Assembly: GCF_016124105.1 (NCBI RefSeq) | Contig: NZ_JADGMQ010000006.1 | Location: forward strand, 62,001-126,000 | Length of the DNA stretch: 64,000 nucleotides | Source: Aquamicrobium zhengzhouense | GTDB lineage: Bacteria; Pseudomonadota; Alphaproteobacteria; Rhizobiales; Rhizobiaceae | Direction of reading: 5' to 3' | In this document: in pieces, positions 59,685 through 63,829 of the stretch | Position numbering within the stretch: the first letter of the stretch is position 1 | Layout: each line of letters starts with the position of its first letter | The notes under the pieces: model-generated | Database searches by the model: none | Seen by the model: the letters and a program-made list of their open reading frames with translations, nothing else | Told to the model about the DNA's origin: nothing | Translations under genes and position numbers: made by a program

Positions 59685-61058
59685 TCAATAGGCATATTCC
59701 AGGAATGCAGGCTCGATAGATCCGCCCCAGCGTGTGTTGTAGGCGTTGATCATCTCCTCGGCGCTGGTGGTGCCGCGGGCGACGACCTCTTCGAGCGGAG
59801 CAAGAAAGCCGGTCTCGTCATAGCCTTCGCGGTTCTTGCGGCCTCGCGCGACAAGTCCCGCCCTCGAAATCTCCAGCACCTCGCGTGCCACTTCGCGCAG
59901 TGTTCCGTTGCGAAGCGTGGTGGAAAGTCCCTCAGTGGGTACCGCATCGCGCATCTGGATGATTTCTTCAAAGGTCCAGTCGCGGGTGAGCTCTTCCGCA
60001 GCATCCAGTGCTGCGTCGTCATAAAGGAGGCCGACCCAGAATGCGGGTAGCGCGCAGATGCGACGCCATGGTCCTCCATCTGCACCACGCATTTCGAGGA
60101 AGCGTTTGAGACGCACATCCGGGAACAGCGTCGACAGATGGTTTGCCCAATCGCCCATGGTCGGCAGCCCGTCCGGAATTTCGTCCTTGAGCGCGCCGTT
60201 CATGAACTGGCGGAACGTGACGTGCGTTGCGTCGAAATAGCGATCGTCGCGGATAAGAAAATACATCGGCACGTCGAGAGCCCACTCGACATAATCGGCG
60301 AAGCCGAAATCAGGCGACAGGAAAAACTGCTTGATGCCCGAACGTGCATTGTCGGTGTCGCGCCAGATGTCGCCGCGCCAGCTCTGAAGGCCGTTGGGCT
60401 TGCCCTCGGTGAAAGGCGAGCTGGCGAACAATGCGGTGGCGAGCGGCTGCAGCTTTAGCGATGTCTGCATTTTGCGGCGCATGTCCGTCTCAGACGAGAA
60501 GTCGAGATTCACCTGAATGGTGCAGGTGCGATACATCATGTCGAGACCCTGCGTGCCGACTTTCGGCATATAGGCTGTCATGATGTCATAACGCGATTTT
60601 GGCATGCGCGGCGTTTCGGCAAGTGTCCATTTCGGGCTGCCGCCAAGGCCAAGGAAGCGGATGCCGAGCGGATCCGCAATCTCGCGCAGCTGCGCCAGAT
60701 GCGCATTGCTCTCGCGGCAGGTCTGGTGCAGCGTCTCGACCGGCGCACCGGAAAGCTCGAACTGGCCACCCGGCTCAAGGCTGATCGCGCCCTGACCCGT
60801 CGGCTCTACCAGGCCAATGATGTGACCGGCGTCGATGATGGGCTCCCAGCCAAGGACGCGCTGCATTCCTTCAAGGAGTGCGCGAATGCCCTTGTCCCCG
60901 CCATAGGGAACCGGGCTGTTGCCGTCGACGTAGAAGGGAAACTTCTCGTGCTCGGTCCCGATGCGCCATTCGTCTTTCGGTTTGCAGCCGAGCGAAATGT
61001 AGGACACGAGTTCGTCCTTGCTTTCAATCGGCCGAAAGTCGGTCGTGTCACGCGCCAT
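59685..61058 (-). CDS. gshA: Glutamate-cysteine ligase (plant/alphaproteobacterial type)
   Basis: A 457-residue ATP-dependent ligase making gamma-glutamylcysteine, the first step of glutathione synthesis. It belongs to the GCS2-like group found in plants and alphaproteobacteria: WRIGTEHEKFPFY near the N-terminus, GGQFELSGAPVETLHQT, MYRTCTIQVNLDFSSE and NGLQSWRGDIW. The ATG at 61058 starts MARDTTDFRPI. It is downstream of rsmE (116-base gap), an order common in this group. Confidence 0.95.
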   Translation of the reverse strand: MARDTTDFRPIESKDELVSYISLGCKPKDEWRIGTEHEKFPFYVDGNSPVPYGGDKGIRALLEGMQRVLGWEPIIDAGHIIGLVEPTGQGAISLEPGGQFELSGAPVETLHQTCRESNAHLAQLREIADPLGIRFLGLGGSPKWTLAETPRMPKSRYDIMTAYMPKVGTQGLDMMYRTCTIQVNLDFSSETDMRRKMQTSLKLQPLATALFASSPFTEGKPNGLQSWRGDIWRDTDNARSGIKQFFLSPDFGFADYVEWALDVPMYFLIRDDRYFDATHVTFRQFMNGALKDEIPDGLPTMGDWANHLSTLFPDVRLKRFLEMRGADGGPWRRICALPAFWVGLLYDDAALDAAEELTRDWTFEEIIQMRDAVPTEGLSTTLRNGTLREVAREVLEISRAGLVARGRKNREGYDETGFLAPLEEVVARGTTSAEEMINAYNTRWGGSIEPAFLEYAY

Positions 61059-61174: not shown

Positions 61175-61912
61175 TTAGCGCCAGTCTCCCAACGTTGCCT
61201 GAACGACAGCCATCGCGGCAACAGCGGCCGTATCGGCGCGAAGGATGCGAGGACCGAGCGGGATCGCAGTCACGAAGGGCAGCCCTGAGAGCATCCGGCG
61301 CTCTTCATCAGAAAAGCCGCCTTCCGGTCCTACGAGCAGTCCGAGCTTCGTTTCCGTAATCGTCTGCAGGATCGGGAGCGGGTTGTCGCCGGCGGCGCTT
61401 TCATCGCAGAAAATCAGCCGCCGCTCCTTGTCCCACTCCGAAAGGAGGCGTTCGAGTTTGACGGGTTGCCGGACTGAAGGCACGGCCAGGACGCCGCATT
61501 GTTCAGCCGCCTCGATCACGTTGGCCTGGTATTTTTCAACAGCTACCTTAGGCGCTTGCGTGTGCTGCGTGAGGGTTGGTTGCAAAATTCCGGCCCCCAT
61601 TTCGACAGCCTTTTGCACAAGGTAGTCGAGGCGTCCGACCTTTAGCGGCGCGAAGGCGTATACCATGTCTGGCGTCGCGGGTTGTTCGCGGGTCTGCTCC
61701 ACGATCTCAAGCTGGACGGCTTTTTTGCCAATGGATTTCACACTGGCGGTCCACTCGCCGTCGCGGCCGTTAAATACAAGCAGTTGCGCGCCTTCCGCCA
61801 TGCGCAGGACATGGGCGAGATAATGGCTCTGGCCCCTGTCCGTCTCGAACAGGGTACCGGCTGCCAGATCATGCGGTACGAAGAGCCGCTGTAGACGATA
61901 ATTTGCACGCAT
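61175..61912 (-). CDS. rsmE: 16S rRNA (uracil-1498-N3)-methyltransferase
   Basis: A 245-residue SPOUT-class methyltransferase modifying U1498 of 16S rRNA. The knot-region motifs [13 protein letters not shown] and [12 protein letters not shown] are intact. The start at 61912 ([13 protein letters not shown]) fits the family; 15 more codons are open upstream but would not match homologs. Upstream on the same strand lies the conserved 218-residue gene. Confidence 0.94.
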
Positions 61913-61966: not shown

Positions 61967-62623
61967 TCAGGCAATCCACCTTGGCAAGTAGCCCGAGCAA
62001 AGCGCGCCGATAGTGGCGATCGGTGTGATCAAGGACGCGGTTTCTGGCAAGGCAACTGGTGCGCCATAACCTGAAAAACTCCACGGTAAAGCACGACCGG
62101 AACGTAGCGCATAAGGTTGTCCGTCCGCGCAAATCATCGCCCCGTCAGGCAGCGCAGCTATGGAAGTGGCGTCCAGCTTCAAATGAGCTGCTTCGGGAAT
62201 CATGCGTTGACGGTGAAGCATCGCGTCCATCTGCGGAGCAGTGGCGACTTCGTCGAACTCGCTAGAGAACGCGCAGGCAAAAGCGATGGCGTCATCGCGG
62301 CGACAATAGAAGCAGGGACGGTGGCCGGCTGCGAGCGCGGTAATTTCATCAAGGAAGAACAACTCGGTCCAACCGGCGCGGGAGTTTTTGCCATTGCGGC
62401 CCATTGGTTCGCGTAAAAGACCGCGCGGATGTTGCAGGGAGCAAATGATCCAGGCTTTCGTAGTCCATCTGCGTTTCAATAAAGTCTTGCTGGTCGGGCT
62501 GTGGATCACACCGCGATTGCCGGTGAACAGACCACGTTCCGGGGTCGCGTGGATTTCCCCGAACGGATCGACGCGATTTTGCAGTGGCACAGGCCATCTC
62601 CCTTTCTGTCCCGCACGGGCCAT
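61967..62623 (-). CDS. Conserved hypothetical protein with CxxC motif
   Basis: A 218-residue soluble protein. Distinct stretches are QNRVDPFGEIHATPERGLF, GNRGVIHSP, RRWTTKAWIICS, WTELFFLDEITALAAGHRPC and FYCRRDDAIAF. The central GHRPCFYCRR offers a CxxC pair with nearby Arg and His that could bind metal. I recall similar hypothetical proteins in related bacteria but no function. The frame is open far upstream, across the divergent amidotransferase gene; ATG 62623 is the last start before that gene and leaves 45 bases between the divergent starts. Confidence 0.75.
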   Translation of the reverse strand: MARAGQKGRWPVPLQNRVDPFGEIHATPERGLFTGNRGVIHSPTSKTLLKRRWTTKAWIICSLQHPRGLLREPMGRNGKNSRAGWTELFFLDEITALAAGHRPCFYCRRDDAIAFACAFSSEFDEVATAPQMDAMLHRQRMIPEAAHLKLDATSIAALPDGAMICADGQPYALRSGRALPWSFSGYGAPVALPETASLITPIATIGALCSGYLPRWIA

Positions 62624-62668
62624 GCTATCGCTCAGCGCGCTTTTGGCCACCTTATGAACGAGGCTATG

Positions 62669-63385
62669 ATGCGTGTCCTTGTTATCCAGAACTTTGACGG
62701 AACCGAACTTGGTCTTCTCGGGACCGCCCTGGATGAAGCGAATGCCACTATTGAAACGGTGCGTCCGTATCTGGGCGAGGCACTCCCGAAAGGTGCGTCT
62801 TCGCACGATGCGCTGATCGTGCTTGGCGGGGGCCAGAATGCACTCGCTGATGACACGCATCCCTATTTTCCCGAGCTGATGGCGCTGATGCGCTCCTTCA
62901 CGGCTGCAGGGCGTTCGGTGTTGGGAATTTGCCTTGGCTGTCAGTTGCTGGCGCGTGCGCAGGGAGCAGAGAATATCATCGGCGGCGCGACCGAGTTCGG
63001 CTGGCAAAACGTTGAGTTGAACGATGACGGTGAGGCCGATCCGTTCTTCAAGGGCGTTGATCCATCGTTCCCGATCTTCCAGTGGCATGACGACACATTC
63101 ATCCTGCCGCGCGGTGCGGTGCGTCTGGCGGGCAGCATAAAGGTTCATAACCAGGCATTCCGTCTTGGTCGCGCCACATACGGCGTCCAGTTTCACTTCG
63201 AAGCGGACCGCAAGGTCGTGGAGCGGTGGAACACCGAGTTTGCCGACTGGATTGCGGAGCGGCAGCCGGATTGGACCACCCGCCATCCAAGGGAAGCGGA
63301 ACGTTACGGCGCCGTTGCCGACGCGATCGGGCTCAAGATCGCACGGAACTGGGTCTCCACCATTAGGCGGGCACAATCCCGGTAA
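62669..63385 (+). CDS. Class I glutamine amidotransferase
   Basis: A 238-residue stand-alone GATase1 domain of the GuaA-like type. The nucleophile Cys lies in LGICLGCQLLARA and the catalytic His in YGVQFHFEAD. Such free-standing proteins are often gamma-glutamyl hydrolases or peptidases rather than GMP synthetases; the substrate is unknown. The start ATG 62669 has AGG five bases upstream (GAGGCTATG-ATG); in-frame ATGs at 62666 and 62654 are less well placed. Confidence 0.88.
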   Translation: MRVLVIQNFDGTELGLLGTALDEANATIETVRPYLGEALPKGASSHDALIVLGGGQNALADDTHPYFPELMALMRSFTAAGRSVLGICLGCQLLARAQGAENIIGGATEFGWQNVELNDDGEADPFFKGVDPSFPIFQWHDDTFILPRGAVRLAGSIKVHNQAFRLGRATYGVQFHFEADRKVVERWNTEFADWIAERQPDWTTRHPREAERYGAVADAIGLKIARNWVSTIRRAQSR

Positions 63386-63404: not shown

Positions 63405-63470
63405 TTGACTCACATTCGACGGGTTACTATCTCTTGAGGCATGTTAGCACTCACCGAGGGAGAGTGCTAA
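63405..63470 (+). promoter_or_regulatory. groESL heat-shock promoter with CIRCE operator
   Basis: TTGACT (63405-63410) and TATCTC (63428-63433) at a 17-base spacing form a sigma-70 type promoter. Just downstream, TTAGCACTC-N9-GAGTGCTAA (63444-63470) is a perfect CIRCE element, the binding site of the HrcA repressor. Confidence 0.96.
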
Positions 63471-63532: not shown

Positions 63533-63829
63533 ATGGCACAGCTTAATTTCCGCCCGCTCCACGACCGCGTGGTTGTTCGTCGGGTTGAGTCCGAGGAAAA
63601 GACTTCCGGCGGCATCATCATTCCGGACACTGCCAAGGAAAAGCCGCAGGAAGGCGAAGTCGTCGCTGTCGGTTCGGGCGCTCGTGACGAGAGCGGCAAG
63701 CTGGTTGCGCTGGATGTCAAGGCTGGCGATCGCGTCCTGTTCGGCAAGTGGTCGGGCACGGAAGTCAAGCTCAATGGTCAGGACCTTCTGATTATGAAGG
63801 AATCCGACATCATGGGCATCATCGGCTGA
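63533..63829 (+). CDS. groES: Co-chaperonin GroES
   Basis: A 98-residue co-chaperonin that caps GroEL. Family motifs are [19 protein letters not shown], the mobile loop [18 protein letters not shown] and [16 protein letters not shown]. The start at 63533 (MAQLNFRP) is the canonical one; 33 codons further upstream are open and cross the CIRCE. HrcA control through CIRCE is expected. Confidence 0.98.

Follow-up and report, generated by a model that had tools for sequence, protein, structure and literature searches.

A conserved CxxC protein with an Ada-like zinc knuckle shares genomes with Cada2 and may take part in handling modified DNA

Introduction

The N-terminal metal-binding domain of Ada (PF02805, Ada_Zn_binding) contains the cysteine residues C38, C42, C69 and C72, which form the pairs C38-x3-C42 and C69-x2-C72. 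The number C38 is also used in a paper on alkylation in Brucella (PMC6813329). According to Kamat et al. (PMC10957082), the adaptive-response regulator Cada2 combines a B-box domain with RLHD as a motif and with a methyltransferase domain, does not contain the four-cysteine A-box domain and is seldom found together with E. coli-type Ada (about 7%).

Here, we describe a protein that resembles one half of the Ada zinc domain. Its gene lies in a window of 64,000 nucleotides, that is the whole stretch of Aquamicrobium zhengzhouense DNA that was analysed. The initial annotation had described it as an uncharacterised CxxC protein (here CX) encoded divergently from a lone glutamine amidotransferase (here GAT), and had proposed that the two may share a pathway.

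Results

The CX/GAT locus

Re-examination of the window confirmed both open reading frames, CX at 61967-62623 on the reverse and GAT at 62669-63385 on the forward strand, their ATG codons being 45 bases apart, as well as the motif GHRPCFYCRR in CX. That CX is a real protein is shown by its conservation across 150 distinct homologous sequences. Its start is probably GTG 62590 rather than ATG 62623, because most homologues begin with MPLQNR, a ribosome-binding-like GGGAG (62598..62602, reverse strand) is located 7 nt upstream of the GTG, and ATG 62623 falls within a conserved box described below. With the GTG start, the CX gene (61967..62590, reverse strand) would encode 207 aa and the CX-GAT gap would measure 78 bases; the in-frame upstream ATG would yield 218 aa. 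Directly downstream of CX and on the same strand follows what we take to be an rsmE-type 16S rRNA methyltransferase gene (61175..61912) and then gshA, presumably encoding glutamate-cysteine ligase (59685..61058), both named by their sequence. Beyond GAT, a perfect inverted repeat of the CIRCE type, TTAGCACTC-N9-GAGTGCTAA, is present at 63444-63470 upstream of groES (start near 63533); presumably, it is a heat-shock repressor site.

GAT (62669..63385, forward strand, 238 aa) passed the family score of PF00117 with 53.2 bits (cut-off 22.8) and has the Cys-His-Glu residues in the contexts GICLGCQ and QFHFE, of which C88, H176 and E178 are taken to be the catalytic triad. It resembles PDB entries 9xfs and 1o1y nearly end to end and the NCBIfam model PRK07053 over nearly its full length, but its score for the latter (150.8 bits) stays below the equivalog cut-off of 250 bits; similarity to gamma-glutamyl peptidase is weak (E 1.6e-4). 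Judged by these matches, GAT is an ordinary, stand-alone glutamine amidotransferase of class I that retains the catalytic triad. A tandem pair of GAT copies was observed in genome G047 (G047:C6:80917-82349), whose CX gene is on a different contig.

The divergent CX-GAT pair is confined to close relatives

The nearest named CX loci belong to Mesorhizobium, Aminobacter and Aquamicrobium. Of the 80 nearest loci, 64 contain GAT, which in all 64 is divergent from CX and separated from it by 73-184 bp; in the other 16, no GAT was detected. rsmE is located downstream of CX in 76/80 loci, at a median distance of 61 bp past the CX match, and rsmE and gshA are both on the CX strand in 74/80. Thus, rsmE-gshA is a steadier neighbour of CX than GAT, and rsmE is the most constant one.

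When 60 genomes were compared, namely the own genome and 59 relatives, CX was present in 31 (G012, with E 6e-4 and three stops, was dropped), GAT in 18 (E 1e-40 or better) and both in 13. In 12 of these 13 the genes are neighbours, 11 times immediately and once with a called gene in between. However, GAT is absent (E 1e-40) from 18 of the 31 CX-positive genomes, CX is absent from 5 of the 18 GAT-positive genomes, and in G047, the only more distant genome with both genes, these are on different contigs. Around more distantly related CX genes the neighbours differ, the divergent pair being restricted to the group of nearest loci; in a family further removed, about nine loci have CX near gene clusters 13 and 14, which we take to encode a release-factor-3-like GTPase and a DEAD-box helicase, respectively. 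We read this as vertical retention of CX in these lineages, GAT being its neighbour in just one group.

Lack of conservation in other genomes had been named beforehand as the outcome that would speak against the pair. Indeed, the pair is retained among close relatives and is not retained outside them, because CX and GAT often occur apart and the neighbours of distant CX genes differ. A common pathway of CX and GAT, e.g. a glutathione- or amide-related one, would agree with the divergent arrangement in most of the nearest loci, the conserved intergenic box, the proximity of gshA and the weak gamma-glutamyl peptidase likeness of GAT, but the separate occurrence of the two genes, including that in G047, and the changing neighbours make it highly improbable. 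That the divergent arrangement represents local gene order is a serious possibility.

The intergenic box GAGCGATAGCATG (62621..62633, reverse strand) contains ATG 62623; its commonest form is GAGCGATATCATG. Allowing up to 3 mismatches, this 13-bp sequence was detected in 62 of the 64 GAT-bearing loci as compared to 4/400 shuffles, and among the 16 loci without GAT in L062 only, where 149 bases of contig remain upstream of CX. The box looks like a promoter or operator of CX or GAT. In the own genome, it is the sole zero-mismatch match to GAGCGATANCATG, and tolerating one mismatch returned 15 further places versus 5 for a reversed-pattern control, on which grounds a role as regulon site was rejected. 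The sequence AAAGCGC, which we take to be the E. coli-type Ada box, occurs in the CX-GAT gap of the window, but in only 3/65 intergenic sequences, and was likewise discarded. Scanning for promoters and terminators near the gap yielded a single weak site resembling a promoter, on the strand of GAT, which is no more than shuffles would explain.

Given the position of rsmE, CX could alternatively be a zinc protein with a structural role in translation or rRNA metabolism, linked to RsmE. The downstream location of rsmE in 76/80 loci and a neighbour in L161/L185 that we take to be methionyl-tRNA-synthetase-like are in line with this idea. However, the neighbour of CX changes between lineages, and the idea leaves both the resemblance to Ada and the Ada/Cada2 pattern reported below unexplained; we therefore consider it improbable.

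CX belongs to the candidate-defence family PDC-S40

The initial annotation had assigned no known domain to CX. This is only partly right: Pfam and PHROGs contain no family for CX, and NCBIfam returned a sub-threshold Ada match alone (E 0.12), but the PADLOC candidate-defence model PDC-S40 covers nearly the whole protein (E 2.7e-63 to 7e-64; CX residues 12-216, model positions 7-204 of 211). The same model matches all 50 rows of our CX alignment A2, with a best E of 1.3e-82. A phmmer search detected no relative of solved structure at E 1. PDC families reportedly originate from a preprint. Background for the label is available in PMC11514479. Among the papers listed for adaptive responses and the Ada metal domain as well as for PDC-S40 and PADLOC candidates, none dealt with the CX family.

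The motifs GNRG and W..C are present in all 150 distinct CX sequences, GNRG..H in 147, G[HYF]RPC..C in 149 and GHRPC..C[RQ] in 148; since the lone exception to G[HYF]RPC..C reads GHKPC..C, both cysteines of the CxxC motif are found in 150/150. Hence three cysteines are invariant, C50, C93 and C96, and in 11/150 sequences the total number of cysteines is three. In the window and counted from the GTG start, the reverse strand encodes GHRPCFYCRR with C93-x2-C96 as residues 89-98 (62297..62326), C50 of the W-x-x-C motif at 62441..62443 and H30 of the GNRG..H motif at 62501..62503. The N-terminal half is basic, with a family mean net charge of +7.2 over 110 residues. Two of 25 rows were omitted from the first CX alignment, L108 with an internal stop and L102 with a shortened annotated gene; the open part of L108 is counted among the 150 sequences.

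The CxxC motif of CX aligns with the second cysteine pair of Ada

Comparison of 50 CX sequences with 8 Ada zinc domains using hhalign gave a probability of 72% (E 3.3e-5, 43% identity over 21 columns), whereas 12 column shuffles and one reversal reached at most 0.5%. When the CX profile was run against 398 genomes from the phylum, matches were returned in 48, of which 44 are accounted for by CX and 4 by Ada or a small Ada-zinc protein; the latter 4 fall exactly on the second cysteine pair (E 1e-4 to 9e-4). Three further cross-matches in the scan of the order (G045, G555 and G564) overlap PF02805 matches on the same contig. PF02805 was touched by 3 of 23 CX rows (best E 0.03) and thereby is the most-touched Pfam family, but none of the 23 rows reached its curated cut-off, and six unrelated Pfam families each touched one row, one of them at a better E of 0.016.

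By sequence, CX shares the GxRPCxxCR knuckle with the metal-binding domain of Ada, C93-x2-C96 aligning with C69-x2-C72, and has three invariant cysteines and a nearly invariant histidine. CX as a canonical Ada methyltransferase was ruled out: C38-x3-C42 has no counterpart, and CX consequently lacks the canonical methyl-acceptor cysteine. The AlphaFold2 model of CX has a pLDDT of 87.2 and a pTM of 0.85, its weakest part being the first 75 residues (block means 63-86), where H30 and C50 reside. The structure prediction proposed for the surroundings of GHRPCFYCRR brought no fold assignment, as Foldseek searches of the PDB and BFVD with this model yielded no match at E 0.001 or better.

Two other Ada-zinc-like open frames were observed, one of 96 aa in L141 (G228), adjoining an ada-type gene, and one of 459 aa in L199 (G045). 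Both have glycine in place of the Ada acceptor cysteine, in the motif RIYGRLDC followed by AGYRPCAVC or AGFRPCARC, and they appear to represent another variant of the Ada zinc module.

CX accompanies Cada2 and avoids Ada

The own genome gave no match in a PF02805 search. It encodes an AlkB-type protein and a single PF01035 protein, which is Cada2-like and contains RLHD (G000:C3:47684). The distribution of these genes was determined in 297 genomes of the order of the window (taken as Hyphomicrobiales), own genome included. PF02805 was detected in 115 of them and CX in 114, after removal of G045, G555 and G564, where the match concerns the Ada knuckle only; split or partial CX matches were kept as positive (G063, G130, G453, G463, G550 and G596). 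CX and Ada coincide in 18 genomes (Fisher odds ratio 0.17, p 5e-11) and, when counted by genus, in 11 of 123, with 42 and 57 genera carrying the one or the other (p 0.002). Stratification by family gave 18 genomes as compared to 32.1 expected (z -5.8, 272 genomes), a figure that is somewhat too strong because it omits the 25/297 genomes without a listed family, all of which are negatives for the tabulated families. On visual inspection, Ada lies more than 30 kb from CX in each of the 18 genomes that carry both, the smallest distance being 34 kb (G422).

Proteins of the Cada2 type, assigned solely as relatives at E 1e-20 of the regulatory part of the own protein, are encoded in 203/297 genomes. 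They occur in 107 of the 114 CX-positive but in 96 of the 183 CX-negative genomes (odds ratio 13.9, p 2e-15), and within families the association persists, with 101 genomes seen versus 92.3 expected (z 4.6; 11 informative families, 286 genomes, the 11/297 without a listed family, negatives as above, being omitted). Four of the 7 CX-positive genomes without Cada2 are only 58-78% complete. Ada and Cada2 also avoid each other (54 shared genomes, odds ratio 0.20). Still, among Cada2-positive genomes Ada is present in 16/107 with CX and in 38/96 without CX (p 1e-4). All these co-occurrence statistics ignore the species tree, and related genomes are not independent. A link of CX to AlkB, which served as a control in the within-family comparison, was dropped, as its odds ratio of 3.1 overall corresponds to a z of 1.4 within families; none of the AlkB places among the matches listed adjoins CX.

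Outside the order, all 16 CX-positive genomes of the 398-genome scan and 64 others were inspected for Cada2. It is present in 14/14 CX-positive genomes of the same class, which come from two families, and in 0/2 of other classes, as compared to 4/64 CX-negative genomes overall and 1/8 of those from the same class.

CX was also considered as a member of the Cada2 regulon. The pattern GCAA-N2..4-CGG is enriched upstream of cada2 (9/20 cases, shuffle rate 0.133) but not clearly so upstream of CX (19/149, shuffle rate 0.084), where the sites shown lie mostly near -154 on the GAT coding side. The spacer of the Cada2 box is given as exactly 3 in PMC10957082; with this spacer, the counts are 1/20 upstream of cada2 (shuffles 0.040) and 14/149 upstream of CX (shuffles 0.030). 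The 149 CX upstream sequences thus offered no convincing box site, and we did not adopt regulon membership.

Alkylation and defence genes near CX in other lineages

Neighbouring genes were predicted by a crude custom gene caller, which sometimes chose the wrong strand and missed CX in several loci as well as alkB of L167. Family scans covered 135 of 170 neighbour proteins from 21 of 24 loci and returned 110 families, several of which look like generic ATPase matches; they comprise CX loci alone. In L045, on a contig titled Sphingomonas sp. CBMAI 2297, CX is followed on the same strand by genes for Ada, a glycosylase (HhH-GPD), a 2OG-Fe(II) oxygenase of the AlkB type, an unknown protein, an Ogt-type methyltransferase and an Oxygenase-NA protein. 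In genome G024 (L096/L167), an AlkB-type match begins 41 bases past the CX match. These alkylation genes beside CX come from the loci of two genomes among the CX loci up to L192 and were noticed after the fact.

Other loci bear on the main rival to an Ada-type repair or reader account, namely the defence label: CX may be an Ada-like reader of phage DNA modifications that acts against phages as a single gene (PDC-S40), its alphaproteobacterial copies having been domesticated. Beyond the PDC-S40 match of all 50 A2 rows, this proposal draws on L149 and its near-duplicate L150, where CX follows genes for a type I methyltransferase and its specificity subunit as well as a gene matching HEC-05/SspE, and on L152, where it adjoins a type I methyltransferase gene. 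Likewise, CX is close to an SNF2 helicase with DpdE/ZorD matches on a Pseudomonas luteola plasmid (L106) and to a nucleotidyltransferase and a ThiF protein on a Tsukamurella plasmid (L103), CBASS cyclase and E1-E2 models being returned for the neighbour set that includes L103. However, these neighbour scans cover CX loci alone, close relatives hold CX at a fixed rsmE-gshA site (74/80), and the other family keeps it beside clusters 13 and 14. Moreover, 50,697 phage records contained no CX match, and IMG/VR contributed 4 relatives among 39 candidate stretches, L149, L150 and L152 included. On balance, we regard the anti-phage proposal as rather unlikely, albeit less so than the two alternatives discussed above. 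Among 72,556 plasmid records, 32 also carry CX, Shinella accounting for 13. In another class, a CX homologue (L191, 6403-7020) is followed by a same-strand HNH endonuclease gene that overlaps the CX frame.

Discussion

Taken together, our data tie CX to the Ada/Cada2 world and not to an amidotransferase pathway. As a tentative but preferred explanation, we propose that CX is a stand-alone Ada-type zinc protein for the handling of methylated or otherwise modified DNA. C50, C93 and C96 together with H30 would bind one zinc ion, while the basic N-terminal half may sit on the DNA backbone, allowing CX to read or repair backbone- or base-methylated DNA. Because CX lacks an equivalent of the first cysteine pair in Ada, C50 is the only candidate for a reactive acceptor thiol, and repair by the Ada mechanism would require C50 as substitute acceptor. 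In the genomes sampled, CX is kept mainly in genomes with a Cada2-type regulator and is usually missing where zinc-bearing Ada occurs, which makes it plausible that CX supplies the function of the zinc module separately. In some other genomes, CX among defence genes would act on foreign modified DNA.

A more far-reaching version, which we consider doubtful at present, is that Ada has been split in many alphaproteobacteria: Cada2 would operate without the A-box sensor, whereas a separate CX/PDC-S40 protein would remove or sense backbone methylation through zinc-bound C50 and would also have been recruited among defence genes against modified foreign DNA. The repair reading and the defence label are compatible if the shared job is the recognition of modified DNA.

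A nameless but widespread family gains a testable place. Should CX work with Cada2, this would suggest how bacteria with a zinc-less Ada handle DNA whose backbone is methylated, and should it work in defence, the Ada zinc module would be a reader of DNA modification. Either way, a place would be found for the candidate-defence gene PDC-S40, which several bacterial lineages keep at fixed sites beside ordinary genes.

How does CX compare with the described systems? With PDC-S40 (PADLOC-DB 2.0.0, PDLC05013), whose PADLOC entry carries no description, it shares nearly the whole model, but the copy in the window sits in a conserved rsmE-gshA locus away from defence genes. With the Ada zinc domain, it has in common the FF...A..AGxRPCxxCR knuckle, that is the second cysteine pair in its GxRPCxxC context, as well as proposed metal-site cysteines and a basic N-terminal half. 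In contrast, C38-x3-C42 of Ada lies outside the hhalign match, the invariant cysteines of CX being those of W..C and C..C; the HTH and MGMT domains of Ada are not matched, and CX has an extra C-terminal alpha/beta part of ~110 residues without a fold match. Cada2 (PMC10957082), finally, combines HTH, RLHD and MGMT without a zinc domain and hence is a protein distinct from CX, with which it nevertheless shares genomes, that of the window included.
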